Positions 255 to 24,711 of a stretch of DNA of 64,000 nucleotides are shown piece after piece (position 1 is the stretch's first letter; each line of letters opens with the position of its first letter). The translations under genes were made by a program, and so were the position numbers. The DNA comes from Phellopilus nigrolimitatus (Eukaryota > Basidiomycota > Agaricomycetes > Hymenochaetales > Hymenochaetaceae): the NCBI GenBank assembly GCA_021029095.1, contig JAJOHG010000022.1:186001-250000 (forward strand). Direction: 5' to 3'. Below the pieces are notes generated by a model. It was not told the origin of the DNA. It ran no database searches and worked only from the letters and a program-made list of their open reading frames with translations.

Positions 255-532
255 TATTGGATATAGTATGATCTTGGACACTTTTATTCCTTTTATTATT
301 TTGCATACCGGGTGACTTGAACTCCTGACTTGTTGTTCTGCGTCACCTGACATGTTGATGTATTATGTAATGCTTCCTTTGAAGCGGCAGAGTCCATGGA
401 TGGTGCTCTCTATCTTTTGCACTCATCCATTGGACTCAGGCATGTTTAGTTTCTCTAATACATTATCTTTTGCACTCATCCATTGGACTCAGGTCACTGT
501 CTGTGTTTGTTGTGAGACCACTCCGCCTCACA
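255..532 (+). repeat. E1 5' LTR
   Basis: It begins TATTGGATATAG and ends CCGCCTCACA. The start was set from the target duplication of sister element E2; an inner TGG...CA boundary (258) would fit the usual TG..CA rule. A block of about 30 bp (reading atcttttgcactcatccatt and ending in ggactcagg) occurs twice, near 412-442 and 464-493, and is a tandem duplication built into the LTR of this family. Small open frames inside the LTR have no coding character. Confidence 0.92.
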
Positions 533-549
533 GGTTATGAGCCTTGCGC
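533..549 (+). other. E1 primer-binding site, initiator-tRNA anticodon-arm type
   Basis: GGTTATGAGCCTTGCGC starts directly after the LTR. Its reverse complement contains GGCTCATAACC, the anticodon stem-loop (CAU) of eukaryotic initiator tRNA-Met, not the tRNA 3' end. This matches the half-tRNA priming known for Drosophila copia. The same core is used by E2 and E3. Confidence 0.7.
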
Positions 550-1532
550 TGTAACTTCACAACAACGTTCAGTACACCGTCGACAACATCCTCCTTGATT
601 TTCGTTCAAATCGGAGTTGATCTGGTCCCTCTGGAAGAGTTTCTGTCAACTGCAAAGTTCTGGCTGTTCGGATTGGGCTGTAATCGCAGGGTTAGGTTCT
701 GTGGTGTGTCCGTCGCCTTTGTGTCGATTTTCGTGCCGCCATTCGCACTTGCTGGCACTCTACACCCCTCTGCTTCGACATCCATCCTTATCATCCTCTC
801 ATCTGCACTCTCTGCTTTTCGTCTCATCGCTCGAAATCGGCTGGACGGATCGTGCTGAAACTTCGCACGTCGTCTCGTTACTCTGGTCCCACTCGTCGTA
901 CCAACGTGTGGCCGATTCGACTTCGATTTGAGGGTGCTGCATCGATTTCGACTTTTGCAGTCTCTATCTGTCTGTTTGTCTGCTTCCTGCATCGGTTTTG
1001 CATAGCGGACTCAGTTCTTGCCCGATCGCTCTGCGATTTTACACACGTGCTCGTGTTCACGTCGTCTCGGTGTGTGTTGATTTGCGTCTCAATCGCTCCA
1101 CCCATTCCCCCTCTGTGTTGCGTTTTGCGCGGTTTGCCAGCTCTGGTACCTGACAGTTCAGACCCATTTCATTCCATTTGGTTGTTGTTGGATCAGATAG
1201 TCTATTGGTTGTGAAGCTCGACTGCAGGGCCTTAGTTTGCCCTTTGTGACGCTCTTTTGAGTGTTTACTTAAGCCTAGAGCCTCTCTCAACCAGCGGTGC
1301 CTGCGGAGTCTTAACAGACTGACAGACCAGCACTGTCTTGCAACGATTCTGTGTATACATTGATCATTTTGGGTGTTTGGAATCTGTTTGGCTGGTATTG
1401 ACCTGATATCTGCAAATCGCGTAATTCGGCTTGTACACGTTTTCGGCCATCACGCCCCAACCGCTTGTCCGTTTAATCCCCAACTTCGCACTCTCACTCG
1501 CACCACCATCGTCTACCATCGCTCGCATCGTC
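550..1532 (+). other. E1 untranslated leader
   Basis: About 980 bases lie between the primer-binding site and the most likely gag start. Several overlapping frames exist on both strands, but none is conserved as protein with the E2 leader (17746-18728) while the DNA is. The stretch therefore looks like a long RNA leader that may hold packaging signals rather than a gene. It is unusually long for a copia element. Confidence 0.6.
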
Positions 1533-2645
1533 ATGTCCGCATCTACCACCTCCGACTCGCAATCGACATTTTTCTTCGCTAAGCTCAACGATAGCAACTA
1601 TGCGACATGGAAACTCGAAATGCGAGCTGCTCTCCAAGCCAAGACTCTCTGGCGCATCGCTTCTGGCATTGCGACGAAACCATCAAAGGCAGAGGAGCAG
1701 GAGGCATGGGAGGAGAAATCGGAGCAAGCAGCCGGTTTTATCTACGGAAAACTCGAGCATGGCATGCAGATCCTGGTTCAGGACGATTTGGGTAACCCAG
1801 TGGAGATGCTGAAGAAGCTGAAGGAGCTCAACCAGCAGGACAATGCGGCGTCGCGTTTTATTGCCTATGACGAGTTCTTCAGCATTGCCAAAGCTGAAGA
1901 CGAGTCGCTCACTGCACTCACTGCTCGCGTTGAGGAGTCGTTGCACAAGCTCAGGAATGCACGCAGCTCTAAGCTCACCCTTGAGAAGTTCGAGGATGAG
2001 CTTGCGTCCATGTGTCTTATCCGTGCCCTCCCAGACGAGTACAAAGCTTTTCGATCTGCCCTCCTTCTCATGCCTACCTTCACCCTCGAGACGGTCAAGA
2101 AAGCGTTCTTGCAGGAGCAGAAAGCCAGTGGCCCTCGTGCTGCAGACTCTGCACTCGCTCTCAAGACCTCTACTCCACCCTCCAAATCGACTTCATCGTC
2201 CTCCTCCTCGTCTCAGCCTCTTGTCTGCGATTTTTGCGGCATGAAGAACCACCTTGAAGCAACTTGCTACAAGCGTCGTGATGCGATGAAGGAGTTGAAG
2301 GACAAGAAGAAGAGGGGAGGCAAGGCAAAGGCAAATGCGGCGCAGGAGGATACAGAGTCGACTCAGTCTGCTGAGTTTGCTGGCAATGCAAGTACCCATG
2401 ACTTCACAAATCCCAACTCGCCCCTCCTCTCTGATGCAGGATCTGACTGGATTGTTGATACAGGCGCCACTTGCCACATGACACCTCATCGTCATTGGTT
2501 CAACCAATATACCCCTAATCGCACACCCATCCGCCTCGCCAACAACGACGTTATTTACTCAGTTGGAATGGGGACTGTCCGCTTTCAACCAGTGGTCAAT
2601 GGAAAGAAGGGTCGTCTGCTAGAGTTTGAGCGTGTTCTTCATGTA
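1533..2645 (+). pseudogene. E1 gag-protease half of split polyprotein
   Basis: The probable start is the ATG at 1533 (MSASTTSD); an upstream in-frame ATG at 1431 adds 34 residues of low-complexity leader. Visible in order are a copia-type Gag (LNDSNYATWKLEMRAAL, UBN2-like), a serine tract, a CCHC zinc knuckle CDFCGMKNHLEATC, and the aspartic protease motif DWIVDTGATCHMT. The frame is cut at base 2645 by the helentron-like insertion; after that it reads about 20 unrelated codons to a stop at 2706-2708. Identity to E2 over this part is near complete, so the insertion is the only obvious lesion here. Confidence 0.9.
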
Positions 2646-2691
2646 CTTGTGGGAGAGGGCCATTGCTTTGCATGGCAGTATACGATTCCTG
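2646..2691 (-). other. Helentron 3' end: hairpin and sub-terminal inverted repeat
   Basis: On the minus strand this reads CAGGAATCGTA, then a stem-loop GCCATGCAAAGCAATGGC (2659-2676), then 13 bases ending ACAAG. The W copy at 24669-24711 has the same layout with GCCATGCGAAGCAGTGGC and 11 bases ending CCAAG; the substitutions leave the hairpin foldable. Confidence 0.7.
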
Positions 2692-3083
2692 TTTTCCTGA
2701 TTTGTTAAGGTTGATCTGATGCAAACGTATTTGCAGTAGTGCATATGTATATATTATTATTGCTCCTACTGTGGGCATTTTCCTAGTCACCAAGGAAAAA
2801 GGTAATAGGAAACCAAAGCACACCTTGGTTATTATAAGTGTCATAGGAACTGCAACATTTGAGTTGAAGAGACGAGCAAAAAGTTCAAAAGCAAAAAGTC
2901 CGTACACTGCAGACTTTGTAGGAAATTCAGTTGTGTCCATATTTCAATACAGCAGACACTAACTGCACAATCAATAATAAACCTTGTATACTCCTAAACA
3001 CCTCCCAACATCCAATCGTGGTAAGTAGAGAAGCGCAAGCGACTGTCCAGGGTTTTGCACACGGAAGTTGTGGATAGATCAAT
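2692..3083. other. AT-rich helentron segment without a gene
   Basis: About 390 AT-rich bases between the 3' terminus and the captured mucin piece. There is a weak local inverted repeat (CACCAAGG ... CCTTGGTT, around 2790-2850). I see no coding region. Confidence 0.5.
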
Positions 3084-5692
3084 TCAGACATTGTCTCGCA
3101 AGACTGGAGCAGAAATCGTTCCGGGGACAATCGCCCGCTGCTCACGCATGCCGCCGCCAATACCTGCCGCCGGATTAATGCGGTGATCATATACTTCGTC
3201 ATGCATCGGTGCCTGCACGTAACCGCGAAGTAAATCCTCTGCATAGTAGAATGAGCGGCGACGCTGGCCACCAATCGAATCCTGATAGAAGTGCTGCCCA
3301 GGCACTGGCGTGCCGCCAGGATTCATGTCTGTCAAGTGTTGATGCGCAACCTCCTGGCGTCGCTTAAAGTTACGGTATATCAAGAAGACGAGGATGCACA
3401 ATGCAATACCACCGAGTGCCGAGCAGACACCAATAATAGCATCAAGTCTGGTATGGTCTGAGCCTGACGAAGACGAGCTCGAGCTGTTCGAGGAACCATT
3501 CAATCCATCCGATGTAATGGGATCTCCCACGGAGGTCACACTAAAGGACGCGTCAATGCATTGGGCGAGCTGATTGGATATACCTGAAGTGCCTGTGTAA
3601 AGGTCTGACTGCCTGGCCTTGACAGCCTGCTCCAGTTCAGTGACCTTATCCGAGAGAATGTACGACATGAAGAGCGTCCAGAGTTGACTTGCATCCGCGG
3701 CAGACGTATAAGTGGAAGGCTCTCACACCTGCAGATCAAAAACTTTCACTTGGTCGGCTGTGAAAAAATACTCAGAAATTTAGCTGTATGTCTAGGATGT
3801 GTAGATGATCAGCAAATCCATGATCCTTACGAAGAACACCAAGAGCGGCTTGCAAGCACGCCGGGAAATACGCAAAAATCTGCGCCGCACTATCAGTATT
3901 AGTCGCAACGAACTCCCAACCCAGCGTCCCGTCAAACATAATCGCCACAGCCGTGAACCCGTCGAGATTATCAGCCTCAGCCGTAGTTATACCTCCCTCC
4001 TCAGGGAAGGTCCGCGCCGGGAGACCTAACGGGAGCGGCACCGCGGTCACCGTTGCGCCGCTTGTCTCGCTTTCAAGTGTCACGTTCGTCGTTGCTTGAT
4101 CCGGGTCAGTCAATGTCGATTGTGAAGTCATCGTCGGCGGCGGCACGCTCGTGAATAGCAAACTGCTTTGGGTGAGGAAAGAAAACTGGGAGTAATGGCG
4201 TTGTCGAAAACGAGGAAGTACTCGAATCCTTGCTAGGGAGTGCAGTCACGGTCGAAAGCCCTGTGGATGAGCTTGTTGCAGTACTGGTACTGTTGCCCGT
4301 TGGAAAAGTAATCGATGTTTCGCTCGTGGTTGTTGCCCAGCGCTCTTAGTCGTGATGTTCGGCTCCGCGGAAGTGCTGTTTGGACTTCCGCTGGGCCCAG
4401 CGGAGGTCGTAGCATTTGGACTGCCACTAGTGGATGTTGAAGTCAACACCCCACTGGTTATCGAGCACAGGAGACCGGTGCATGACGATGTGCTACTGCC
4501 ATTATTAGAAGTACTGCTAGTAGTGTCAGGCGGCGCCGAAGTGATCGTCGATGTTGATCCCCCACTAGTGATTGAGCATAGGAGACCGGTGCAAGACGTT
4601 GTAATGTTACCATTATTAGAAGTACTGCTAGTCATGTCAGGTGGCGCAGAGGTAGTCGTTGGCGACAACCCACTGGTGATGGTGCGCAGAAGTCCTGAGC
4701 ACGTCGACGAGGAGCCATCGCTCGTCGTTGTTGATGCGGCACTTCCGCTGGACGATGACGTCGAAGTCTCCGTGGGTAAAATACTGCACAGAAGACCAGA
4801 GCACGCCGATGAAGGCGAACTCGATGAAGACGAACTCGATGAAGGCGAACTACTTCCGGAAGCACCACTAGACGAGACTGTCGTCGTGGTTTGTGATCGC
4901 AATACACCGCATAAAAAACCTGAGCATGTCGATGAGCTCTCTGAGCTCGTGGAAGACGAAACCTCGCCGCCAGATGACACAGCCGTGCTCGATACTTCAG
5001 TGGAAGACGAAGTCTGCGATGGTAAAATTCCGCACAGAAGACCGGTGCATGATGTTGACGTCGAAGTATCACTACTAGGCGTGGATGAAGACGCGCTTCT
5101 TCTAGTAGACGGCGAGGTCTCCGATGTGGAGGTTGAGCTATCTGTCGGAAGACTGATACAAAGCAAGCCAGTGCACGGCGATGTCGAGCTCGGTGTGCTC
5201 GATGGGATACACGCAGTGATCCCGAGCAGATTCAGACACGATGCCGCCACATGCCTGGCTGGACGACGCCGAACTCGAAGTCAAGCTAGAGCTAGAGCTA
5301 GAGCGCGAACTTATATCTGAGGCATGTGCCGTGCTACTCGATCCGGAATTCGCTGACGAGGTCGATCCTGACCTGATTGAGCTCGACAATGACGGCGAGA
5401 TGGACGTCGAAGTAGGTGATGAAGTGGTAGACGCAGAGGGCACGCAGAGTGCGTTAATACCAACACCAACTAGGTCAAGCCCAACCCCACAAGAGGTTGT
5501 GACAGCATCAGAAGTCGATGCTACCGCGGACGAAGGAACAGACGTGATCGTCGAGCTAGAATTTGTTGTCGAAGCTCGTCTACTAGACGTCACCGAGAAA
5601 CTGGAAAACGATGAGGTAGTCGACGGCGAGGCACAGCTGCTGCTGCTCGAGGGACTGCTCGAGGGACTACTCGCGGAACTGCTTGACTTCGA
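3084..5692 (-). pseudogene. Captured MSB2-like signalling mucin, N-terminus replaced
   Basis: The frame runs from about 5692 down to a stop at 3084-3086. It encodes a long Ser/Thr-rich region with at least seven spaced C-S/T-G-L-L-C type cassettes (4246-5200), then a domain reading AIMFDGTLGWEFVATN and SAAQIFAYFPACL, then ASQLWTLFMSYILSDKV, a spacer, one membrane helix (IIGVCSALGGIALCILVFLI) and a cytoplasmic tail of about 75 residues. The folded domain resembles the Hkr1-Msb2 homology region of osmosensing and filamentation mucins. Introns are retained. One base is missing near 5235, shifting the frame in the Ser/Thr region, and no signal peptide is present: upstream the sequence turns into P5A ATPase. 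Inference: a captured, decayed 3' gene portion. Confidence 0.58.
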
Positions 5693-6034
5693 AGATAATG
5701 TCGTCGGTAGCTTGGAGGTGAACGGGCGGCACAGGAGGCGTCGCCGAGCTTGATCTTCGGGACGTCATATTCTGCATCCATATCTGCCAGACTATTTGTA
5801 ATGGAGTTTAGATTCGAACATGCATAACATCATTCAGTATATTCCTTACACAACCAGAGAAGCAAAGAATTACATACCTTTTCCATAGCGCGCAGAGAGC
5901 TTGAGCTGCGTTTCATACACCTTGAGGCGCTGGTACTCTGCGATCTTCTTGAGGTCGTCCTGCGTGCCATCGAGCAGCGGGACACCGACATGTGCGTGTT
6001 TGAGCGCGCCGACGTCGCTCGTGCCATCGCTGCG
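5692..6034 (-). pseudogene. Captured P5A-type ATPase fragment (C-terminal half)
   Basis: Minus-strand residues DGTSDVGALKHAHVGVPLL and GTQDDLKKIAEYQRLKVYE match the catalytic-core/hinge signature of Spf1-type P5A ATPases (ER membrane, transmembrane-helix dislocase). An intron with donor gtatgtaat follows, and then EYDVPKIKLGDASCAA, a conserved P5A segment just before the C-terminal helices. The usual hinge asparagine in GDGTND is serine here. A single-base shift lies near 5715, after which the frame fuses to the Ser-rich mucin at about 5692. It is far too short to be functional (family about 1,200 residues). Confidence 0.72.
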
Positions 6035-6534
6035 GAAACGCGCCGCGCCGGCCGCTGCACACCAGAAGCAGCAGATCATCGACGCGAAGGCCACACAGGA
6101 CCCGCACAGCCTCCGACGCCGCCCGGCTTGCTCGCCGCGCACGCGCAGGCTGCCGCTGCCACGGCGCAGGAGGCCATCGAGGCCGAGGGCGACGCGTCCG
6201 CTTCCTAGGTGCGAACTTCCTCGGTCCACCCCTCGGCGGCGGCGGCGGCGGCGGCGCCCAGCCGCGTGAGCGCGCGCTCACGCACAAGAGCTCGAGCCGG
6301 ACCGTCGGCGGCGGCTCGGTGAGATGGCTTCAGATGTCGGAGGTAGTGAGTCCGAGGGCGGCGCGTCCCGAGGTGAGTTGGAGTTCTGCAAGCGGCGGTC
6401 TGGCAGAGGACAGGTACGGGAGCGGGGCAGACACCGGCGGGTTTTCGGAGAGTAGGACATAAGTGTACGAGAATATATATGTTAACGGGTCTACAGGCTG
6501 TCAAAGAAACGTCAACAAAAGAAATCCTAAAATC
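6035..6534. other. GC-rich helentron segment, no gene recognised
   Basis: Both strands have open frames because of the high GC content, including a (GGC)n run near 6237-6256. No frame has convincing protein character. One short minus-strand stretch could be linker sequence of the ATPase gene. I assign nothing. Confidence 0.3.
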
Positions 6535-6860
6535 AAAAGAACACGACGCACGTCTTTTTTGCGAAGGTGAACGATCTCACCCTTGCCTCTATGCTCCGCA
6601 GGGACGATGTGGACGGCGTCAGCGGCACGCAGATCGGAAGCGGGACGGCATGTGATGAATGCGAGAGCAGCTGTGCTCCAGCGGGTCGCGAGAAAGCTGA
6701 GAGCGTGGCCTGCACTGAGGGAGATGCAGGTAAGGACATCCATTCCTCTGAGCGGAGCCAGTCGTTGTAGCGAACGAGGTAGACATAGGCGAACGGCGCG
6801 TAGAGGGCGAGGTACGGGGCAAAATAGGAGTAAGTAGCGTGTGAGGCCCGATGAAGCGTG
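6535..6860 (-). pseudogene. Captured P5A-type ATPase fragment (N-terminal)
   Basis: The minus strand reads YFAPYLALYAPFAYVYLVRY, NDWLRSEEW, then (next frame) LTCISLSAGHALSFLATRWS, AFITCRPASDLRAAD and HIVPAEHRGKGEIVHL. This is the conserved N-terminal membrane region of fungal Spf1/P5A ATPases, which precedes the actuator domain. A frame change occurs near 6735. It lies upstream, on the same strand, of the C-terminal fragment at 5692-6034 with the middle of the protein missing, so both could come from one captured locus that lost its centre. Confidence 0.7.
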
Positions 6861-6864
6861 TTTT

Positions 6865-7035
6865 TCCCACAGCTGTGTGCACTGTTATCTCCTCCTCCGG
6901 TGACCACCTCGACATTGACGATCCACCCACGGCGATCGCGCTGACCGCGGACGAGACGCCCGAGCAGCGCGCGGAGCGGGAGAGGTGCGAGCGCGGCACG
7001 TGAACGACGAGATCGACGAGCGGAGCGCCTCGCGC
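6865..7035 (+). pseudogene. Possible G-protein alpha subunit N-terminal fragment
   Basis: The plus strand reads HLDIDDPPTAIALTADETP, EQRAERERCER, a one-base break, then NDEIDER. This resembles the N-terminus of a class of basidiomycete G-alpha subunits (DP-x-T..., PPDETPEQRAER..., DEIDE). The following P-loop region is absent; the sequence turns into Ser/Pro-rich frames to about 7490 that I cannot place. The match is short, so the assignment is tentative. Confidence 0.35.
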
Positions 7036-7680
7036 AAGCGCAAGCCGGTCGAGCGCACGTCGTGGCATGCCGTCGCCCCCCGGTCCCCGTACAAACCTCT
7101 CGACTCTCTTTTCCGCAATCTCAACAACACCCAGCCGTCCACTGTATCCGACACCTCCCACTGTCGCCAACATGAACAACCCATTCCGCACCCAGGTCCC
7201 CCGCCGAACACCAACAACTCTGCTCCCGCGACACCCGTCTCCTCAATCACCGCCGCTTCCCACTCCTCGGCTGGGTCCGCCCAGAACCAGCCGCCCGCAG
7301 ACCGCCTGAGCGCGATGCTGTCGCTGCTCGACCGTAGCTCCCTCGCGCGCGTCATCAAGCACCACGTCTGCCGTAAACCAACCAATCATTCCCCACCCGA
7401 GTCTGCCCAGCATCGGGCAGCGTGCGCGGCTTATGCAGTCCAGAAACGAGGCCCAGGGGAAGGTTTTGCTCGAACAATTGATGTCTAGGTAAGTTTTTTA
7501 TTTTTCGACTCATTTTTGTATATGGCTTCCGTGCGCTTCGATCCTCTATTTTGCGGTCCCCCCTTTGAGCCGAAGATCTCTTTTTTATTGATTACTTTAA
7601 AATTTGAGACCATCGACTAGCGAACACTTGTACTCATGAATTCATACAGTAATCTCGGAAACTCTCGCTCCGCCCGAACA
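7036..7680 (+). other. Unplaced Ser/Pro-rich frame and spacer
   Basis: An open frame to a stop near 7488 is rich in S, P, T and N and has no domain that I recognise. The stretch 7490-7680 is AT-richer with no coding signal; a possible intron donor (gtaagt) follows the stop codon region at 7490. Confidence 0.25.
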
Positions 7681-7785
7681 GCAGGCAACACAACGTCGCT
7701 CGAGCAGCACCACAAGTAGTACGACTTCGTCCTCGTCGTGTTCGCCCTGGAGCACCTCGCGTATGGCCCGCGCGCGCGATATCGA
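7680..7785 (+). pseudogene. Second copy of HAD-hydrolase fragment
   Basis: The frame YDFVLVVFALEHLAYGP parallels YDSVFIAFAPEHLAYGP at 9548-9600 of the longer HAD-hydrolase piece. The DNA around both (tacgactyc, ttcgctccggagcacctcgc-like) is also similar, so this is a diverged duplicate of the same captured exon. Downstream (7790-8500) are frames without recognisable homology. Confidence 0.5.
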
Positions 7786-7789
7786 TGCT

Positions 7790-8619
7790 TACGCGCGCGT
7801 AAGCGAGCTTGACCAGGTCAATGGCTCTATATCAAAGTGCCTACAGCTTCTGAGGAACGCGCAGCAGACGGGACAGTCTGTCACAACGTCGGCTCCCCTC
7901 CCTCAGGACGTACACTCGATGGCATACGCGAGCGCAGCAGGCCCGCCTGTGACAATTACTGGTGGACCGCCGTTACTCACGGTCCGAATCCCGCGCCCGA
8001 TCTTCACGCGCACCGAGTCAAGGGAGCATATCAACGAGAATGGATTGTCACTTCCCTCTGCGCATGCCCAGAACGCTCCGCCACCCTTCCGCGGTGGGCC
8101 ACCGCCATCTCTTACACCCGTCGGGGAGCCAACCACACAACGCTCGCGATGGACATCGACCGTGCGCCTGTGCGCGAAGTGTTTCCGCCGCACGAGCACT
8201 GCCGCTCACGTGGACCAGGGGGTACACCGCAGAGCCTCCTGCTGCATCATCCGCAAACGGGGCCGCAAGGAGGTCAAGAGCATCAGCGCGACCCACACTA
8301 GTCTTCCACGGGCGCCTCCTCCATCACCGCCTTCCTACCGACCACCTCCAGCGCCTCCCCTTCCCGCCTTCCTCGTCCCATCCGAGCCCCATCGCCATCG
8401 CCTCCCCGCCCGCGCAGTACACCCGCTCGTCCAACATCGGCTCCTCGTCCCCCGGCGACCCGCACCTTAAGGACAACTTCGACTACCGCCAGACAGCGCG
8501 CTAGTGCGCGTACACCTCTCCGTCGTGCTCGTCCCCGTCGTCCCCGCAGTACGCGCTCGCGCGGCAGCTCCGCCGCGCACGAGGACATCCTCGCGCTCGG
8601 ATACTGCGTCGGCGCGCGC
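7790..8619 (+). other. Unplaced GC-rich frames in helentron
   Basis: A frame beginning near 7793 (RVSELDQVNGSISKCLQLL) could be a short coiled coil. Later frames are Arg/Pro/Ser-rich and interchangeable between strands. No domain is recognised, and I see no reason to call a gene. Confidence 0.25.
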
Positions 8620-9160
8620 CGGCGCCTCCATGGCGAGCTCCTGCGGCGCGTCGACCTCGCGCATTACCTCATCATCACCACTTGTGCAACCCACGTTACC
8701 TATCACGACGGAGGCTCGATCTATCAAACCAATATCGTTACCTGTACCGGCTTCTACAGTAACATCGCCATCAGCCTCTCCATCACGTTCTCCTACGTCT
8801 TTATTTGCCTCATCGCCGCTCATAGCCGAGATATTGCGGCAGATTACTGCATCTCAAACCGCTCTCTCTGATTTCCGCACACAACTATCAGATTTTCACT
8901 CAACGTCTGCATCTCGAGAACAGTGCTAAATGACGAGGTGGAGAAGCAGCGTTCGCGGAAGCGTGCCGACAATACTTCCAAAACCGAGCTCAAGGCGCAG
9001 ACCAAGGCTCTCGAGGATCAGAAGCGTTCGGCAGAGGGTGTGCGCCACCACGCGGAGAAGCGACTTAAGGCGGCTTGTATAGAGAGAGATGGCGTGATCT
9101 CGCACACGGAGTGTCTCGAGCGCGAGAGGCGCGAGCTACACGTGCAAGTAGAGACACAAG
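8620..9160 (+). pseudogene. Captured coiled-coil protein fragment
   Basis: A Ser/Thr-rich segment leads into LIAEILRQITASQTALSDF, then after a frame change near 8925 into a highly charged alpha-helical run, LNDEVEKQRSRKRADNTSK to CLERERRELHVQVE, of about 80 residues with heptad-like spacing. The two frames read as one protein if the shift is removed. The family is not recognised. It directly precedes the HAD-hydrolase piece. Confidence 0.4.
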
Positions 9161-9169
9161 GGTGCAGCA

Positions 9170-9665
9170 ATCCGTACGCTCCTCATAGATCTCTCCGGCG
9201 CGCTGCACATCGGGTCCACCCCGACGACCGCCGCAGCTGCCGCTCTCGCGCGCGTGCGGCAGGCGGGGCTCGCCATGCGCTTCTGCAACAACACCAACCG
9301 GGAGAGAGAGCGCGCGCGCTCTGCGTGAGCAGCTTAGCAGCATGGGCTTCGACGTGCGCGACGGCGAGCTCTGGACGAGCCTCAGCACGATCAGGGAGGT
9401 CGTCTATGAGATGAAGCTGCAGAGGTTCGTTTCGTGTATGGATAGTAGATAATTCTACAGGTATTAAAGTACTTTCTTTAGGCCCTACGCCCTCCTATCC
9501 GACGGAGAAAATCCCGGAGTTCCGCAGCGCCGCGGCGGATACCACGGGTCATACGACTCCGTCTTCATCGCGTTCGCTCCGGAGCACCTCGCGTATGGCC
9601 CACACGTGCGGCTTGCGCGCGAGCATCGACGGCCTGGGGTACCTCAAGTTCGACACACGCGCGAG
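9170..9665 (+). pseudogene. Captured HDHD2-like HAD-hydrolase fragment
   Basis: The plus strand reads IRTLLIDLSGALHIGSTPTT (HAD motif I, with D-x-S-G in place of D-x-D-G as in the HDHD2 group), AALARVRQAGLAMRFCNNTN (motif II N-T-N), LREQLSSMGFDV, and ELWTSLSTIREVV. An intron with gttcgt...tttag (9424-9480) follows, then PYALLSDG and YDSVFIAFAPEHLAYG. The 3' half of the gene is missing. A small indel near 9300-9310 and another near 9505 break the frame. Retention of the intron shows capture from genomic DNA, not from mRNA. Confidence 0.72.
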
Positions 9666-9849
9666 CGCGGAGTAAACTAAATCCCGCTTGCACCCGACAA
9701 CTCGGAAGCCGACGGCACGACTGGAAATGGATGACGTAGTGTGTACAGCGCGCTGTACACACTACGTCATTCAGTCGTGCATCACGTGGATTTGACTAAG
9801 CTCTGCGCTGCCCAGCGTGCCCCTCCCTCGACCGAAGCCTTGCACGGCG

Positions 9850-9925
9850 GACGCACGTCTACACTGTCCCCTTCCTCACCCTCTGCCCGCTGCTCGCCTA
9901 TGCCTACCTCGTTTGCCCCCCTCTG
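9850..9925 (+). pseudogene. Third P5A ATPase N-terminal scrap
   Basis: The frame YTVPFLTLCPLLAYAYLV is the same first membrane region of P5A ATPases that appears at 6740-6860 on the other strand (YFAPYLALYAPFAYVYLV). It is about 25 codons long and differs in sequence, so it is an independent or much-diverged copy. It then joins a Glu/Arg-rich frame with no known domain. Confidence 0.45.
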
Positions 9926-10480
9926 CACAGGACTTGCGTCGTCGATGAGATAGAGGAGGAAGAAGCAAGGGAACTCGTGCCCCGCGCCCGCGCTTTCTCG
10001 CGAACTCCGCGGCGCGCGCCAGCTGGTCCTCGCAGGACTCCTCGCTCTACGCGCCCAGCGACGCCACCGACAGCGAGGCCGCGAAGGGGTACGCCAGCGA
10101 GAGCGCCGACAAGGAGCGCCGCGTCAACCCCACCCCGAGCCAGAGCCAGAAGCAGAAGCAGAAGCAGAGGAAAACGAGCAGCGTGAGCGCGAGCAGGACG
10201 GCGGCGGGCCTTCCCCCGAGCACTGCGCCCCCGTGCCCCGCGCCGTGCGCCTACCCGCAGCCGCCGCAGGCGCGCGCGCCCTCCCCCGGAACTGGGAGCG
10301 CGGTCGACGTCGCGGAGCGCCCGCCGCGCGCACGCAGGGACGCAACAGCTTCCCTGGGCCCGCCGTCTCCGCCGCCGACCCGCTCGCGGATGCCGCCGAG
10401 AACAGCGGGATCGGGGCGGGCGACGGCGGCTCGAGCGCGGGCCACGGCTCCGCGTCGGCGTACTCACCGCTCTCGCCGCA
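9926..10480 (+). other. Low-complexity GC-rich segment upstream of GH16 piece
   Basis: Frames are Ser, Pro, Arg and Ala rich; one (SSQDSSLYAPSDATDSE, YASESADKERRVNPTPSQ) has natural protein character and could be the N-terminal cytoplasmic part of the GH16 protein that follows, but it changes frame repeatedly. Confidence 0.3.
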
Positions 10481-11637
10481 GAGCCCTGGCTCGGCCAACA
10501 GCAGCGGCAACAATAATAACGCGTACCCGGGGTACCCCTACCCGGGCAGGGCTACGCTTACCCACCCTCGTCGCCCGGCTCGCCGTCGTCTGCGCCGGGA
10601 CAGGCGTACTTGCCGTATCCTCACCTGTACCCACCCCCAGGCTCCGTCTCCAGTGTCGCAGGGAGCGCGAACGGGAGCGCGAACGGGAGCGCCAATGGGG
10701 GAGGGAGCGGCGCGGCGACGCCCCGCCCGCACAACGTGTGCATGGCGAGCAGCGCGATGGCGCGCGCGAGCGCCGCGGACCTCGTGCCGTACGCCGCGCG
10801 CATCTACGGCATGAGCGCCGTTGCCGCTGGTTCCGCCGCCGGCGGGAGCAGGAGGAACAGCGTCGACGTCGGGTTAGTGCCTCTCACGTCTCTTCAGTGC
10901 CGTCGCCTTATCTGACGGTGTTTTATGCAGCAGTTCAGCCCGTTCGCGCTTGAGGACAACGTACGTCCCCTTTGGCACTGCCCGCGTGCGCGACTTCACT
11001 GACCCTTGTTCCCTTTCGACAGCAGCAGTTCGCGCCCCCGAACCCACCGTTCGTCGGGCACGGGAACGGGAGCGCACTGAACATGCGCTCCCTGGGAAGG
11101 AGGAGCCGCTGCCGAGCAGTGCGCTGCAACGCAAGATTAGCGGTGCATTTTTCCCGGCTCTGTTTAACTTTGTGAAGAGATTGGGCGGCTGATTGAGTGG
11201 GGCACAATGTCGGAGAAGCCGTGGGTGACGCAGAAGGAGAAGTGGGAGGGCGCGGCGTGGTGGGTGACGTTCTGCATCATGTGGGTCGGCGTCGCCGTCG
11301 GCGCGGTGCTCTGCTTCTTCGGCTTCCAGTGTGTTTTTCTCGTCTGAGCGAGCGAACTGAGCTGACTGCGGGCGGGACGTGCAGCGGCGTGCAGAAGTTC
11401 GAGCAGAACCTGTGCTCGGTCCTGGACGACGACTTCTCGACGTTCGACACAAACACGTGGCACGCCGATGTTGAGCGCGGCGGGTTCGGGTACGTTGTGT
11501 CCTTTGAAAAAATCTCGCGTAGTGCTTATCCGCCGCGGACAGCAACGGCGAGTTACAGATGACGACGGACACGTACGAGAACCTCTACATCAAGAATGGG
11601 CAGCTCATGCGGACGCTCACGTTGGACGAGATCGGCG
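10480..11637 (+). pseudogene. Captured membrane GH16 (SKN1/KRE6-related) glucanase fragment
   Basis: In order: a Gly/Asn/Pro/Tyr-rich cytoplasmic region (GNNNNAYPGYPYPG, SANGSANGSANGGGSG), several short introns, then a signal-anchor segment WWVTFCIMWVGVAVGAVLCFF (from ATG 11206). An intron follows, then FEQNLCSVLDDDFSTFDTN and VERGGFG, another intron, and NGELQMTTDTYENLYIKNGQ up to 11637. The DDDF...W...GGFGNGE pattern is the start of the GH16 glucanase fold in basidiomycete type II membrane proteins related to SKN1/KRE6 (beta-glucan assembly). The catalytic E-x-D-x-x-E region is not included. It ends abruptly by fusing to a P5A ATPase piece. Confidence 0.68.
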
Positions 11638-11740
11638 CGTTCCTTACCTGCGTCTCCCTCGGTGCAGGCCACGCTTTCAGCTTTCTTGCGACCCGCCTGC
11701 TCTCACATTCATCACATGCCGTGCGCCATCGCCGCCCGTA
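11637..11740 (+). pseudogene. Fourth P5A ATPase scrap fused to GH16
   Basis: Directly after EIGA of the GH16 frame the sequence reads FLTCVSLGAGHAFSFLATR, the same P5A ATPase segment as at 6640-6740 but on the opposite strand; the DNA of the two copies is closely similar for about 100 bp. The frame joins without a break, so this junction makes an in-frame chimera over about 20 residues before it decays. Confidence 0.6.
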
Positions 11741-12452
11741 TCTCCGCCGCCTCCGGGTCAAGTGCGTGGTCCACCTTCCGAACCGCGTGACCTTGGCTAT
11801 GGGTATTCTCCTGCCAGGCCACCTCCGCAGACAAATGGTAACGGTGTTAGTGCGAGGCCCGCACAACCTGGCGCACCTTCACGGCATTCATCACGCGGGT
11901 ATTCGTCTCACTACGTCCTTTCGGCGGCATCCCAATACCATCCGATACTTGGGAAGAGAACGGCGCGGGGACAGGGAGCGTGAGCGCGTGCGCCCGAGGA
12001 GAGATTCCGATCAATGGGGCTCCCACCGTCCGCATCGAATTTCGGCCATGCGCACTCGCAGTCTCGCGGACCGGCTTCGCCAATGTCTGCTCATCCGTAT
12101 GAACCGCTCTCACACCAGCCGTCAAGAAGGAACATAATAGGAACACTGCTGTCTCTGCCGTGTCTGGATCCAGACTAGGCAGCCCAGGACATACCTTACC
12201 GCGGCAGCACTCCGTGAGTGGGCGCTCGCCTGTTGTCGGTCCCGCTGGTGTGACAGGACGGGCCAGCACTAGACGGCGAGTGGCCCATATGGAGAGCAAC
12301 TTGAGGCCTTGAGCCCGCCCTTTAATGATGATTCGCTGCCAGCAGATTCGTCGCTGTCGATGGATTCGCCTCCACCGGCGCCTGCGGCTCGCCCGCGTGC
12401 ACAAGCACAAGCACAAGCGGCGGCACCTAGCCGTCGTTATAATTTCTTATAA
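11741..12452 (+). pseudogene. Captured Pro/Ser/Gln-rich protein C-terminus
   Basis: Frames such as LGYGYSPARPPPQTNGNG and RHSSRGYSSHYVLSAAS, then LEALSPPFNDDSLPADSSLS and RAQAQAQAAAPSRRYNFL ending in TAA at 12450-12452, have the composition of a real disordered C-terminal tail. They are in different frames and cannot be joined without shifts. The family is not recognised. Confidence 0.35.
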
Positions 12453-12905
12453 TATGAAAACCATTCCGCCAAACTCTGTGCATTAGCAAAAGTTCTACTA
12501 TCCTGCCAGTGTGTGCTCCTTAGAGAAAAAAATTAGTTAAGAAAATAGTAGTTTGTAAATAACAAGCAATGTAGTAAAATTGTTTTGTATTTATTGATAC
12601 AGCACCCTTTAACTTGATTTTTTTTGACATTCGGACAGAAACACTATATCCCTACCCATAACAGCAAAGACTTTGGATGGATGCATTGCGAGTAGAAAAT
12701 TACAGGTGAAATTCAAAAGTGAACATCGCTGAGGACCATCACCGGAAGAAGCCGAGTGGTGGCTGTGAACGAGTGTACAATCTTACTTCGGAACGAGCTC
12801 AATTTTGTACACTTTTTGTAATGAACACTGCCACATTGGCACAGCCACTGCTGGTGAAAACGCTCAGTTACAAAAAACGATTCTTCGTAAACTCAGTAAT
12901 CGTAA
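12453..12905 (-). other. Helentron 5' terminal region, AT-rich
   Basis: AT-rich and without a gene. The last 170 bases resemble the 5' part of the W copies: a shared block AATTTTGTACACTTTTTGTA and a terminal pair ACGATT...AATCGTAA. On the minus strand the element begins TTACGATTACTG (12905). Confidence 0.6.
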
Positions 12906-15900
12906 CCAGATCTCAGAAACAATCTCCTCTCAGTCCTGTATTTAACTCGAGTCAAATCCTACATTGTCACTATCAAGTCTGATCAGATTCTATTTCGTCG
13001 CAACGGCACTCTCCTCTTCACTGCTGCAATCAACACCAACTACGCCGCGTTCCTCAATGGACAAGTTGTGCCCATGACCCAATTCTCTGGCATGGTTAGC
13101 ACCTGTCCACTCGACTTAACGCTCTGGCATCGTCGTTTTGCGCACTTGAATCATGGGGATGTCAAGAGACTGATCGATCATGACATGGTTAAGGGGATTA
13201 TTGTGAAGTCTATGGAGTTGCCTGACCCAATCTGCGAGCCTTGCATTGCAGGCAAGCAGCATAGGTCGAATGTCTCAAGACTTGCATCTCATCGCTCTAC
13301 TGGTCTGTTGCAGCTGGTCCACTCTGATGTGCATGGCCCTCTGCCAGTTCAAACTCGGCATGGTTATCGTTACTGGATCACATTCATTGATGATTACAGT
13401 CGGCGCTGGGGAGTCATACCCCTTAAAAAGAAAAGCGATGCGTTTGACGCTTTCAAGCGCTACAAAGCACATGCAGAGAACCAGCTCAACCTGAAGATCA
13501 AAGCGACTCGCGATGACAAGGGAGGAGAGTACATGCCCAAGGCATGGGAACAATTCTGCATTTCTGAAGGGATTCACCGGCAACACACTGTTCGTGATGA
13601 ACCCCACCAGAATGGAGTAGCTGAGCGCGCTAATCGCACTTTGGCTGAGGGCATTACCACTATGCTGAATGAAGCACACCTGCCTGCCAGTTTCTGGTGG
13701 GATGCGGTCAATGCTTTTGTTCATGTGCACAATCGCTCTCCTACTTCTGCTGTCCAGGGCAAGACGCCCTATAAGCTGTGGCACAATTCCAAGCCGGATG
13801 TGTCGCATTTTCGAGTATTTGGCTGCACCTCCTATGTGCATGTCAAGAAAGATATGCGCAAACAGCTCCAGTCACACACGCAGAAATGCTCTTTTATTGG
13901 TTACCCTGAGAACTACAAAGGCTGGATATTCTGGAACTCCATAACGCGCAAAGAGGTCATTAGCGACTCTGCTCAGTTTGATGAGCGCGTGTTCCCTGGA
14001 AATACCAGGTCTCCTGTCGACTTAAGGGTTCCAACTCCTCCAGAGGCTACAGCTGTGCCGGAACAAGGGGGAGATGGCGATGTGGATGATGTTCCGCCAC
14101 TTCCTTTGCCTGCTAATCCACCAGCTCCTCCTCCTCCTCGTCCTGCCACTCCTCCTCCTCGTCCCCCACCAGCTCCAGTCACTCCTCCATTTCGTCCTGC
14201 ACCACCTCCAGTGACTCCAACTCGGCCTGCTGTAAAGCGCGAGCGAGCTCCATCGGATGTCCCTCCTGGCCCTCCTGTGTCTTCTCCTTCTGCTCACCCT
14301 CCTCCTGCGAAACGACCTAAGGAACCTCCTGCTCCCACTCCTGCACCTGAGTCTACTCCTGCACCGGAAGCGCCTTCTTGGCCTTCAACGTCTTGGCGCC
14401 CTCAGCCGCGTCCCTTGCATGGGTACAGAGATGCAGTCATTAATCCACTTGCAGATTATCCAGGTCGTCGCATTCCTAGGGCTCCAGCTGCACCAGCACC
14501 AGCAGCAGCACCTACACCTGAGCCTGTGATTGAGCGCAGTGACGAGTTAGACATCATGTCTGAGGATGAGATGCAGGCTGAGGCGCTTATGTTTGCTGGG
14601 CTTATGGACTTTGGGGCAAATGCGGCACTTGAGGACTGCTACATCAGTTTTGAGGACGCACACAATCATGTGTTGAAGTCTACAAACTGCTTTGAGCATG
14701 TCTTCTCTGCGGAGGTGCGCACCCAGTATGGTCCTGAGCCAGTACACTGGAGAGATATCAAGGGACGTCCTGACGCTTCCCTCTGGGAACAGGCTGCAAT
14801 GGACAAGTTTATCAGTCTTGTTGAGAATGGCACATTCACCCCAGTCAGACTTCCTTCTGGTCGTAAGACCATTGGCTGTCGGTGGGTGTTCAAACTCAAG
14901 CGCAAGGCAGATGGCTCAGTGGACAGGCATAAGGCGCGATTGGTGGCAAAGGGTTACTCACAGCGCCCTGGCTTAGAGTTTGCACAGGTGTTTGCTCCTA
15001 CTGCCAAGTGGGCTGCACTTCGCGCTATACTGGCCTTGGCTGCAATTGAGGACCTGGAGTTGTTCAGCATTGACATCTCCACTGCGTTCCTCAATGGTGA
15101 CTTGGATCATGACGTCTACATGGATCAACCAGAAGGGTTTGAGGAGTATTATGGCGCCGGTTTTGTGCTTAAGCTTGCTAAGGCGATCTATGGTCTTAAG
15201 CAAGCTGGGCGCCAATGGCACAAGAAACTCGACTCTGTGTTGAAGGGCATGGGCTTCTCCTTGGTTCGCTGCGACAACAGCATTTGGGTCTACAGACGTG
15301 ACGATGTACGCATCATCATCCCAGTCTATGTGGATGACATGACCATTGCTGCAAAGTCGAAGGAGCAATTCTTGTTTGTCAAGCGCGAACTTGAAAAGCA
15401 CTTCAAACTGCGCGACCTCGGCCCTACTTCCTTCCTGCTTGGCGTCCATATTGAGAGAGACCGCTCAATCCGATCCCTATCCCTGTCTCAGCGCCAATAC
15501 ATCACTGACTTACTTGAGCGCTTTGAAATGGCTGGATGCAGCGAGGTTTCCACTCCACTACCAGAAGGCCATCGTCTCAGCAAGTCCATGGGTCCCCTCA
15601 CTCCGGAAGAGATCGCATTCATGAAGACTGTCCCCTACAGGCAGCTGATTGGTGCACTCATGTATCTGGCTGTGGCAACGCGTCCTGACATCTCATATGC
15701 AGTTGGACTTCTTGCGCGCTTCAGTTCTAATCCTGGTCCTGCTCACTGGAAGGCTGCAAAGCACTTGTGTCGTTACCTTCAGGGTACCAAAGACATGAAG
15801 TTGACTTATGCGCCTGACAAGAACTCGTCTGAATTGTTCACCACATTCACTGACGCGGACCATGGAGGGGATGAGGATGACAGGCGCTCTACAAGCGGCC

Positions 15901-16298
15901 TGGTGGTTAAGATGGGAACTGGTGCTATCAGCTGGGCTAGTCGACTTCAAACTATTGTCACTCTCTCTACCACTGAAGCGGAATACATCTCTGCTGTTCA
16001 GGGTGGTCAGGAGATTATGTGGTTGCGCAACTTGTTCTCTGAATTTGGCTATGAGTTCAATGCGCCTTCCACACTCTATGTGGACAACCAATCTGCCCTT
16101 GCTGTTGCCAGGAACCCTGAACACCATGGACGGATGAAGCACCTGGACTTGCGGCACTACTGGCTGCGCGATGTGGTTGAGTCGGGTCTCATTGACATTC
16201 GCTACCTCCCCACCAAGTCTATGCCGGCTGACATCATGACCAAGGCGCTTGGACGCGTAAAGGTGATTGAGATGCGTGGCATGCTAGGTCTTCTGTGA
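12906..16298 (+). pseudogene. E1 integrase-RT-RNase H half of split polyprotein
   Basis: The frame resumes at CCAGATCTC exactly as in E2. In order it shows the pre-integrase domain (LWHRRFAHLNH, CEPCIAGKQH), the integrase core with HSDVHG, ATRDDKGGEY and the glutamate in NGVAERANR, a long Pro-rich linker (14100-14400), reverse transcriptase with IDISTAFLNGDL and YVDDM, and RNase H with TDADHGGDE and STTEAEYIS, ending at TGA/16298. No stop interrupts this half. It has no start codon of its own, so it is untranslated unless by an internal start. It carries the canonical TRPDI in the RT-RNase H connection, which E2 has changed. Confidence 0.92.
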
Positions 16299-16317
16299 TT
16301 GACAGGCGTGTCAGATC

Positions 16318-16326
16318 AGGGGGGAG
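16318..16326 (+). other. E1 polypurine tract
   Basis: AGGGGGGAG lies immediately before the 3' LTR; it is the expected plus-strand primer and is identical to that of E2. Confidence 0.85.
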
Positions 16327-16604
16327 TATTGGATATAGTATGATCTTGGACACTTTTATTCCTTTTATTATTTTGCGTACCGGGTGACTTGAACTCCTGA
16401 CTTGTTGTTCTGCGTCACCTGACATGTTGATGTATTATGTAATGCTTCCTTTGAAGCGGCAGAGTCCATGGATGGTGCTCTCTATCTTTTGCACTCATCC
16501 ATTGGACTCAGGCATGTTTAGTTTCTCTAATACATTATCTTTTGCACTCATCCATTGGACTCAGGTCACTGTCTGTGTTTGTTGTGAGACCACTCCGCCT
16601 CACA
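16327..16604 (+). repeat. E1 3' LTR
   Basis: 278 bp, matching the 5' LTR at all but about one position and ending CCTCACA at 16604. It abuts an inverted LTR fragment rather than a target duplication. Confidence 0.92.
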
Positions 16605-16668
16605 AAGTCACCCGGTACGCAAAATAATAAAAGGAATAAAAGTGTCCAAGATCATACTATATCCAATA
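16605..16668 (-). repeat. Inverted 64-bp piece of the same LTR family
   Basis: This is the exact reverse complement of LTR positions 1-64 (ends ATATCCAATA). It joins the E1 3' LTR on the left and a truncated W element on the right. It is likely the remnant of another, oppositely oriented copy of the family left by recombination or deletion. Confidence 0.85.
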
Positions 16669-17450: not shown

Positions 17451-17728
17451 TATTGGATATAGTATGATCTTGGACACTTTATTTCCTTTTATTATTTTGC
17501 GTACCGGGTGACTTGAACTCCTGACTTGTTGTTCTGCGTCACCTGACATGTTGATGTATTATGTAATGCTTCCCTTGAAGCGGCAGAGTCCATGGATGGT
17601 GCTCTCTATCTTTTGCACTCATCCATTGGACTCAGGCATGTTTAGTTTCCATAATATACTATCTTTTGCACTCATCCATTGGACTCAGGTCATTGTCTGT
17701 GTTTGTTGTGAGACCACTCCGCCTCACA
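17451..17728 (+). repeat. E2 5' LTR
   Basis: TATTGGATATAG ... CCGCCTCACA, 278 bp. The 5-bp target duplication fixes the boundaries to within one base (a 6-bp GATCGT reading is also possible). It contains the family's internal duplication of about 30 bp. Confidence 0.95.
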
Positions 17729-17745
17729 GGTTATGAGCCTTGCGC
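17729..17745 (+). other. E2 primer-binding site
   Basis: GGTTATGAGCCTTGCGC directly follows the LTR and is complementary to the anticodon arm of initiator tRNA-Met, as in E1. Confidence 0.7.
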
Positions 17746-18728
17746 TGTAACTTCACAACAACGTTCAGTACATCGTCGACAACATCCTCCTTGATTTTCG
17801 TTCAAATCGGAGTTGATCTGGTTCCTCTGGAAGAGTTTTTGGCAACTGCAAAGTTCTGGGTGTTCGGATTGGGCTGTAATCGCAGGGTTAGGTTCTGTGG
17901 TGTGTCCGTCGTCTTTGTGTCGATTTTCGTGCCGCCATTCGCACTTGCTGGCACTCTACACCCCTCTGCTTCGACATCCATCCTTATCATCCTCTCATCT
18001 GCACTCTCTGCTTTTCGTCTCATCGCGGAAAATCGGCTGGACGGATCGTGCTGAAACTTCGCACGTCGTCTCGTACCTCTGGTCCCACTCGTCGTACCAA
18101 CTTGTGGCCGATTCGACTTCGATTTGAGAGTGCTGCATCGATTTCGACTTTTGCAGTCTCTATCTGTCTGTTTGTCTGCTCCCTGCATCGTCTCTGCATA
18201 GCGGATTCAGTTCTTGCTCGATCGCTCTGCGATTTCACACACGTGCTCGTGTTCACGTCGTCTCGGTGTGTGTTGATTTGCGTCTCAATCGCTCCACCCG
18301 TTCCCCCTCTGTGTCGCGTTTTGCGCGGTTTGCCAGCTCTGGTACTTGGCAGTTCAGACCCATTCCATTTGATTTGGTTGTTGTTGGATCAGATAGTCTA
18401 TTGGTTGTGAAGCTCGACTGCAGGGCCTTAGTTTGCCCTTTGTGACACTCCTTTGAGTGTTTACTTAAGCCTAGAGCCTCTCTCAACCAGCGGTGCCTGC
18501 GGAGTCTTAACAGACTGACAGACCAGCACTGTCTTGCGACGATTCTGTGTATACATTGATCATTTTGGGTGTTTGGAATCTGTTTGGCTGGTATTGACCT
18601 GATATCTGCAAATCGCGTAATTCGGCTTGTACACGTTTTCGGCCATCACGCCCCAACCGCTTGTCCGTTTGATCCCCAACTTCGCACTCACACTCGCACC
18701 ACCATCGTCTACCATCGCTCGCATCGTC

Positions 18729-23186: not shown

Positions 23187-23205
23187 TTGACATGCGTGTC
23201 AGATC

Positions 23206-23214
23206 AGGGGGGAG
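23206..23214 (+). other. E2 polypurine tract
   Basis: AGGGGGGAG directly before the 3' LTR. Confidence 0.85.
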
Positions 23215-23492
23215 TATTGGATATAGTATGATCTTGGACACTTTATTTCCTTTTATTATTTTGCGTACCGGGTGACTTGAACTCCTGACTTGTTGTTCTG
23301 CGTCACCTGACATGTTGATGTATTATGTAATGCTTCCCTTGAAGCGGCAGAGTCCATGGATGGTGCTCTCTATCTTTTGCACTCATCCATTGGACTCAGG
23401 CATGTTTAGTTTCCATAATATACTATCTTTTGCACTCATCCATTGGACTCAGGTCATTGTCTGTGTTTGTTGTGAGACCACTCCGCCTCACA
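23215..23492 (+). repeat. E2 3' LTR
   Basis: 278 bp, no difference seen to the 5' LTR; followed by target duplication GATCG. Confidence 0.95.
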
Positions 23493-23497
23493 GATCG

Positions 23498-24037: not shown

Positions 24038-24711
24038 TTACGATCCTGAAACGTAGTGAAAGATCGTCCTACTAACTGGTCATTATCTTTGTGCTTGCAT
24101 ATATTTGTTGTGGCTGTGTTGCATTACAAAAAGTGTACAAAAATTGCGTTACCCGAGTGTACTTTGGTATCGGCGCCCGTGCCACAAGACTACAAAATTC
24201 AAACTTGTTACCAAATTAGGAAAATCCCCATGCTCAGCACCTTTCTCTTTTGTATTTTCAGCATAACTTTTGTTCTACTGCACGTAAAAACATGATTTCT
24301 TTTGCGTTATGCAGCGCCTCGCAGTACCTACACGATTATGTAATATAGTAGATGGGTTTGGGGGCTGAAAAATAACCCCTGAGACGATTTGTCCTGAGCT
24401 TATCCAGCCTGCAGACTTTGCAGGCTGTATGCACCAAATTCCAAAATATCCAAGCTGGTACTTCTCTGGCAGGATGAGACATTTGGAAAGGTCTACTTCA
24501 GGCCTTCCAGATGGTGTATCTATCTCTCCCATCCGTTTTGCTGGAATGTGTTGCCCTGGACTGTACGATCATTTTTGTTGTAATATCATTGCAATCGGAC
24601 CAGAACTCGCTTCTCTATCAGCAAATTACTATAAACCATGATGGGAATGACTCAAACTGGCTACCAACCAGGATCGTAACCTGCCATGCGAAGCAGTGGC
24701 CACTACCCAAG
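24038..24711 (+). mobile_element. W_R: complete short helentron-type element
   Basis: It starts TTACGATCCTG (24038) and has the exact inverse CAGGATCGTAA at 24669-24679, followed by hairpin GCCATGCGAAGCAGTGGC (24683-24700) and 11 bases ending CCAAG at 24711. Both ends match the 10.26-kb insertion in E1. Flanks GGA and TTTACG are not duplicated. It contains no gene; a sub-terminal block GTGTACAAAAATTG and a local inverted repeat AGCCTGCAGACTTTGCAGGCT (near 24407) are visible. Confidence 0.72.

Follow-up and report, generated by a model that had tools for sequence, protein, structure and literature searches.

Gene-capturing Helitrons of maize carry chimaeric, intron-bearing pieces of several host genes and occur in many non-autonomous copies. 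Plant centromeric Helitrons are reportedly tandem-amplified and are not host-gene mosaics. Helitron2 elements are defined, in the sections of PMC3627910 consulted, by a T as first base, an asymmetric terminal inverted repeat (ATIR) at the 5′ extremity, a 3′ ATIR upstream of the 3′ hairpin and a Rep-helicase; as a rule they are without target duplication, and their target is TTTT^(T/C). For helentrons, the parts of PMC5148889 used here give an endonuclease domain and a TT target. The same parts report 27 putative capture events for FoHeli of Fusarium oxysporum, yet nothing that would show an important role for capture, and according to the passages of PMC4289320 that deal with the intact Helitrons of Pleurotus ostreatus these hold no P. 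ostreatus gene fragments, the gene-like sequences of HELPO1 being of other or unknown origin. Here we describe a 10,260-bp element at positions 2646–12905 of a 64-kb stretch of the Phellopilus nigrolimitatus genome (the window), part of a 468-kb contig (C135) in an assembly of 56.4 Mb and 635 contigs. The element is very probably a non-autonomous copy of a Helitron2-type rolling-circle family whose host-gene pieces were captured internally and exchanged, and whose habit is to dwell in islands of a retrotransposon termed E. What appears to be new is how extensively a Helitron2-type family has captured host genes, along with nested internal captures, an orientation-conserved pool of pieces and a family-specific association with E islands; this combination was not described in the titles and abstract openings on fungal Helitron2 capture, centromeric Helitrons and insertion preference that we surveyed, among which few subscription papers were covered.

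Alignment of two E retrotransposons in the window, E1 and E2, delimited the insert in E1 as exactly 10,260 bp, with flanks 97.4% and 97.1% identical. The uninterrupted target site lies in E2 between 19841 and 19842, and the flanks rejoin with zero bases duplicated or lost. Since the long terminal repeats (LTRs) of E1 show 1 difference in 278 bases, E1 is a young retrotransposon. A preliminary description made from the letters of the window had proposed such a clean insertion into a young E1, the site being empty in E2 and the target not duplicated, and the alignment bears it out. Based on the order of ATIR and hairpin, together with the Rep-helicase of a related copy on contig C598, the transposon sense is the minus strand, with the 5′ end at 12905 and the 3′ end at 2646. 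Nine elements of 7.4–11.1 kb, the focal one included, were read whole. The element, its ends and its surroundings comprise:

2646..12905, minus strand: whole element, 10,260 bp, from the empty site in E2 and the exact flank join
12438..12905, minus strand: conserved 5′ region, 337–468 bp common to each of the eight other whole-read elements at 87–95%; the outer 120 bp are 97–100% identical in 23 copies including the focal one
12894..12905, minus strand: 5′ ATIR TTACGATTACTG, first base T; a weak 5′ hairpin is possible by pairing with a downstream AATCGT
2681..2691, minus strand: 3′ ATIR CAGGAATCGTA, which repeats the 5′ ATIR in inverted orientation, 10/11 identical
2659..2676, minus strand: 18-nt 3′ hairpin GCCATGC-AAA-GCAATGGC, 13 nt from the 3′ end
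2646..2756, minus strand: conserved 3′ region, about 60–110 bp in most other copies, ending CTCCCACAAG; 20/20 end alike and the next flank base is T in 20/20
255..16604, plus strand: host retrotransposon E1, split by the element; LTRs at 255–532 and 16327–16604
17451..23493, plus strand: retrotransposon E2 with the empty target site 19841/19842

The 11-bp inverted repeat pairs 12904–12894 with 2691–2681 (CAG(T/G)AATCGTA), in keeping with the asymmetric 10–11-bp inverted repeats first noticed. The 3′ ATIR lies 35 bp from the 3′ end and is followed by the hairpin, at the outer limit of the 11–13 bases from the end originally given for it. Across the copies the 3′ ATIR is the same 11-mer at the same position in 13/20, six differing by one base and one being shifted by a short duplication, and the 18-mer of the hairpin is identical in 13/20 and 1–2 bases off in the other seven. 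In folding energy neither terminal hairpin beats shuffled sequences, of which 31 and 37 of 200 fold equally well, the latter for the ACGATT/AATCGT stem predicted at the 5′ ATIR. As the energy is no better than that of shuffles, the support for the 3′ hairpin is its conserved position and sequence.

Searching the genome with the right 120 bp yielded 31 matches, of which 23 cover the full length at 97–100% and eight are weaker and represent a sister lineage, whereas the left 100 bp yielded 21, of which 20 reach the end and were used and one partial match (L029) was dropped; all these counts are lower bounds. Two of the 5′ ends (L037/L038) are duplicates of one insertion (flank 98.8%, inside 98.7%), so that 22 of the 23 are distinct insertions, 21 besides the focal one. 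Every copy starts with TTACGATTACTGAG (23/23) and finishes with CTCCCACAAG (20/20), the terminal 14 bases of the 5′ ends and 10 bases of the 3′ ends being invariant. The preceding base is G in 13, A in 7 and T in 3 copies and hence R in 20/23, and the following base is T in 20/20. Thirteen same-contig end pairs bracket elements, and for seven of these, the focal one included, paralogous empty sites found among the window and a subset of the retrieved loci are base-exact with neither loss nor duplication. Junction repeats measure at most 2 bp in all 13. The termini thus recur as ends of independent insertions, and consistent target duplications, which would have spoken against the preliminary description, were not seen. 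The multi-copy, well-bounded transposon family is real, and that description was right in substance. Beyond R^T the target consensus is weak: the fourth base preceding the element is C (13/23), and the target T is followed by C at +1 (10/20), A at +3 (11/20) and T at +4 (13/20). Two pairs of ends (C619a, L036/L013; C434, L047/L024) mark different elements that occupy exactly the same site in two separate E copies, and the insertions L045 (C598) and L048 (C390) lie 40 bp apart in E in opposite orientation.

The search for an autonomous relative led to C598, where a 2,460-codon open frame (1168–8547, minus strand) with DUF6570, Helitron_like_N and PIF1 stops about 100 bp inside a family 3′ end at 1066; 5′ ends at 34715 and 36639 could each pair with it. 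In the 2,460-aa protein, Pfam at E ≤ 0.01 returned DUF6570, Helitron_like_N, PIF1 and AAA models only and no endonuclease domain. Genome-wide, Helitron_like_N had 11 matches. A second, interrupted copy on C606 is 98–99% identical to C598 where aligned and split by about 1.2 kb, with nothing before residue 823 within 69800–77500. Eight further Rep loci, one of them a partial frame, form the sister group at 59–60% identity to C598, and two others are far more distant. We also considered C598 as the full ancestral repertoire from which the other copies arose by deletion. In two genome searches (best 40 of 79 and best 40 of 68 candidates), only TPR pieces matched between its ends and no mucin, P5A or GH16 piece did, so that C598 is unlike a complete ancestor.

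The family resembles maize Helitrons in its type of cargo; these have Helitron1 ends (TC...CTRR), insert at A^T and belong to a plant. Similarly, its likeness to plant centromeric Helitrons would lie in a centromere location, the latter reportedly being tandem-amplified and not mosaics of host genes. Helitron1 itself was rejected, since the ends read 5′-TT in 23/23 and CAAG-3′ in 20/20 instead of 5′-TC and CTRR-3′, and of an A^T insertion the T is present in 20/20 but the A in just 7/23. Readings of the insert as a terminal inverted repeat transposon, a Crypton or an LTR element were discarded, as the insert shows neither a target duplication nor a symmetric terminal inverted repeat and a Rep-helicase frame shares its ends. 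With Helitron2, as far as the sections of PMC3627910 describe it, the family has in common the first base T (23/23), a 5′ ATIR 0–2 bp from the 5′ end, a 3′ ATIR followed by a hairpin, a Rep-helicase in a family member (C598; Helitron_like_N and PIF1) and the lack of target duplication (7/13 pairs by empty sites). The 3′ ATIR-to-end distance of 35 bp is slightly above the value published there. The family differs from Helitron2 in its target, R^T and not TTTT^(T/C), in its large host-gene cargo and in its association with retrotransposon islands. Helentrons have a similar end architecture, yet the endonuclease domain and TT target given in the parts of PMC5148889 both fail here. The preliminary label of a non-autonomous, gene-capturing helentron therefore stands for the Helitron2/helentron-type ends, the non-autonomy and the capture, and not for a strictly defined helentron; the name Helitron2-type fits better because Pfam finds no endonuclease domain and the target is R^T rather than T^T. 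FoHeli is likewise fungal with non-canonical Helitron2-type ends bearing ATIRs, and a T follows FoHeli1/2, but according to the same parts of PMC5148889 its terminal sequences differ and its target is TNAT^T; for one FoHeli subgroup that paper also reports circles with joined ends. HELPO1 and HELPO2, in the passages of PMC4289320, are fungal as well, HELPO1 with extra gene-like sequences and about half of them in retrotransposon-rich regions, but they insert between A and T and are without P. ostreatus gene fragments.

The location of the focal element inside E1 was given correctly from the start; it is not incidental, as the same retrotransposon flanks 17/23 5′ ends and 13/20 3′ ends (four of these 13, L011, L014, L015 and L026, can be aligned only beyond a short offset or as E pieces in rearranged order). 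E was counted by one 25-base pattern with up to two mismatches, so that E fragments without this pattern are missed; its 86 matches fall on 27 contigs in one cluster per contig, each at most 65 kb wide. Within 20 kb of a match lie 19/23 5′ ends and 15/20 3′ ends (34/43), in zones making up at most 2.5% of the genome, and within 50 kb 39/43, in zones of 4.4%. Nine ends are farther off than 20 kb: two on C610, one on C598 and two on C112 at 21–43 kb, and one on C511, two on C430 and one on C146, contigs that carry no E match. For the sister lineage only 1/38 places (C75:37158) is within 20 kb of E, in a set that comprises the best 40 of 83 candidate 5′ ends, 41 rows merged by neighbourhood into 38 places, and mixes more than one sub-lineage. 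The difference is significant for all 43 ends (Fisher P = 2e-13), which include both ends of some elements and hence are not independent, as well as for the 23 5′ ends alone (P = 5e-11). The family thus resides mostly in or near E islands, unlike the sister lineage in this genome. Centromeres of many basidiomycetes take the form of a single discrete repeat island on each chromosome, and by this analogy the E islands may be centromeres. We infer that the focal family is targeted to E islands or jumps locally among them.

A targeting domain, a chromodomain or other, was sought in the C598 Rep-helicase, and Pfam gave none at E ≤ 0.01. Its C-terminal 340 residues (2120–2460; L076), to which Pfam assigns no name at the same threshold, presumably resemble a ubiquitin-specific protease, judging by eye from SCAYD and late His motifs. 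They are matched in 90 of the 120 relatives listed out of 573 in the database at E ≤ 1e-20, and for this reason offer no explanation for an island habit of the focal family alone. A single relative among the 120, P0112, has an added chromodomain (PF00385).

Donor or related loci in the same genome were mapped for most of the cargo, which consists of:

2890..5704, minus strand: Ser/Thr-rich mucin-like piece with one apparent transmembrane stretch; donor C35:36357-39325 beside an ETF gene, 88–97%
5709..6030, minus strand: part of a P5A ATPase with a DGT(N/S)DVGALK motif; donor C452/C379, 88–91%; PDB P5A ATPase E = 4.8e-9
6320..6818, minus strand: N-terminal hairpin part of the P5A ATPase; donor 88%
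7075..7666, no strand assigned: dispersed repeat of about 590 bp with long matches at at least 13 other places, 77–83%
7781..8294, plus strand: first part of a TPR gene; donor C1:2595350-2595882, 89–90%
8296..11717, no strand assigned: 3.4-kb block within the captured TPR stretch; some 24 bp of donor sequence are absent at the site
8662..9099, no strand assigned: captured piece, gene unnamed; donor candidate C112:524993-525431 / C339:3242-3680, 94–95%
9168..9600, plus strand: HDHD2-like HAD hydrolase piece; nearest host genes C625/C602, 80–82%; PDB HDHD2 E = 0.0032 (weak)
9868..9913, plus strand: short P5A fragment left of GH16, on moderate evidence; 82–83% over about 47 bp to 6770–6819
9915..11639, plus strand: GH16 gene piece, intron kept, about 280 bp of the donor missing; donor C589/C323, 86–90%
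11641..11722, plus strand: P5A fragment right of GH16, collinear, 93–96%; GCCGT common with the TPR piece at the junction
11718..12440, plus strand: second part of the TPR gene; donor C1:2595906-2596642, 91%

Of the genes named at the outset, the mucin (then called MSB2-like), the P5A ATPase and the GH16 gene were confirmed through their donors and the HDHD2-like hydrolase weakly, and the retention of introns is borne out by the GH16 piece; the G-alpha-like protein was not found in the insert, in six frames against PDB sequences and in four of six frames against Pfam, and the TPR gene had been missed. Its donor, which we take to be Cyc8/Ssn6-like, has an open frame over all 533 codons fetched, and the captured copy has frameshifting gaps, so the direction was from host to element. 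Most fragments were missed by Pfam on raw open reading frames and donor pieces, and the PDB sequence search did better. Two donor contig pairs (C589/C323, C452/C379) look like allelic duplicates; the assembly therefore suggests two nuclear haplotypes, and some repeats may be counted twice.

The arrangement of these pieces bears on how they were acquired. The two TPR pieces lie about 24 bp apart in the C1 donor and 3.4 kb apart in the focal element, and the GH16 piece stands between two collinear P5A fragments that are 36 bp apart in the element's other P5A copy. On the simplest reading of this order, GH16 would have entered a P5A fragment and the composite would sit within the TPR piece. Between the two larger P5A parts the element has about 0.3 kb where the donor has about 2.1 kb. 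Nested pieces and the GCCGT joint are traces that template switching or filler-type repair would leave, and the nesting bears on the debate between end-bypass and template switching or filler DNA.

All nine whole-read copies are mosaics with shared interior segments, and the donors of the focal one are still in the same genome; with donor, product and nesting order all visible, capture by a non-canonical Helitron can be studied directly. Of the focal 10,260 bp, 9,502 are common to at least one of the eight others. Interior segments of at least 100 bp number 115, of which 114 keep one orientation, and 33/36 element pairs share some segment. Among the 24 pairs with at least two segments, 16 are wholly collinear and eight are not (most strongly C610/C619b and C610/focal). 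The expected joint mosaics exist: the joined stretch 2646–7699 recurs in C71, and 11371–12440 in C69 and C2. Against C71 the focal element has a 588-bp stretch at 97.4% beside 1.9 kb at 90.0% (P = 3e-10), a patchwork of the kind that exchange between copies would give. Together, sharing among nine elements with orientation kept suggests a recombining pool.

A course of events consistent with these data can be outlined. A Rep-helicase of the C598 type would act in trans on non-autonomous copies and nick at TTACGATTAC... (5′ end); one strand would be copied up to the 3′ hairpin and CAAG end, and the copy would be joined into an R^T site. Cargo in the form of genomic, intron-bearing host-gene pieces would enter at internal positions through template switching or filler-type repair, as the nested pieces and small target losses suggest, and the pieces would then be exchanged between copies, to which shared orientation and patchy divergence point. 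Several points weigh against this reading. Transposition is deduced from the insertions and their empty sites, and the Helitron2 assignment from end architecture, Pfam domains and the lack of target duplication. The 5′ hairpin is weak, for some copies a single end was found, and 6/13 end pairs are without an empty site in the sequence searched: in C190 both flanks are in E but about 320 bp apart, so that in its present form it is no clean insertion, and the other five have no usable empty site there. For C598, whose ends lie 33.6 or 35.6 kb apart, the pairing comes from position alone and a good empty site is lacking. Eight of 24 multi-segment pairs depart from full collinearity, shared orientation could arise from common descent and deletion alone, and of the two P5A fragments next to GH16 the left one is short, spanning about 47 bp at 83%. 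End-bypass may account for pieces adjoining the 3′ end, and the centromere identity of the E islands is our interpretation.

An origin of the mosaics in segmental duplication or in misassembly of repeat-rich DNA, and not in transposition, is highly improbable. The L037/L038 pair and the allele-like contigs C589/C323 and C452/C379 are what such a process would supply, but 22/23 distinct 5′ ends, the invariant terminal 14 and 10 bases and seven clean empty sites speak for transposition. It is also quite improbable, if less so, that each element captured its pieces independently in place of descent and exchange: the content does vary between elements, and its order differs from the focal one in C290, C619b and C610, yet one orientation prevails in 114/115 segments and the joined stretches 2646–7699 and 11371–12440 recur. 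End-bypass capture, in which the transposase ignores the 3′ hairpin, copies flanking host DNA and adds a new piece at the 3′ end, is described for Helitrons in the parts of PMC5148889 used, and in those of PMC5876387 the 3′ hairpin acts as a terminator and regulates gene capture. The conserved 3′ region, short in most copies and more divergent than the 5′ end, is what end-bypass would produce, since 3′ ends would often be renewed. The GH16/P5A composite, set in a block that interrupts the TPR piece at the cost of about 24 bp, points instead to internal and not terminal additions. Among the 43 ends only those on C625 and C112 are on donor contigs, more than 400 kb from the donor places there; the dropped partial end L029 is on C35, with about 46 kb between it and the mucin donor. 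We consider end-bypass unlikely as the general route and keep to internal uptake.

The island association could alternatively reflect survival, if selection or recombination purges copies from gene-rich arms, and elements of 7–14 kb or larger would indeed harm genes. The sister lineage, with a Rep about 59% identical to that of C598, open frames and related ends, nevertheless persists off the islands (1/38 places near E). Survival is a serious possibility that we rate somewhat short of an even chance, and the contrast of family and sister lineage in one genome makes targeting versus survival testable. A further extension of the preferred Helitron2-type reading is more doubtful and offered tentatively: a centromere-dwelling lineage might act as a recombining library of host-gene fragments, targeted to or hopping among clustered centromeres, with same-strand template switching taking pieces from distant arms. 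If so, capture would need no residence beside the donor gene.

The window holds a smaller relative of the element and several minor features. A 674-bp element, W_R, which had been said to share the ends of the focal one, is real, with ends that are related and not identical:

24038..24711, plus strand: W_R, 674-bp related element, TTACGATCC ... CTACCCAAG, then T

A partner piece of W_R with a similar 5′ end lies near 17100, and directly after the E1 3′ LTR, at 16605–16668, the first 64 bp of the E LTR are present as an inverted copy. Inside the focal element, 9728–9773 form a 46-bp near-perfect palindrome, whose neighbourhood recurs inside further elements and, at L030, L028 and L043, immediately beyond the ends; this region is perhaps a separate small transposon.

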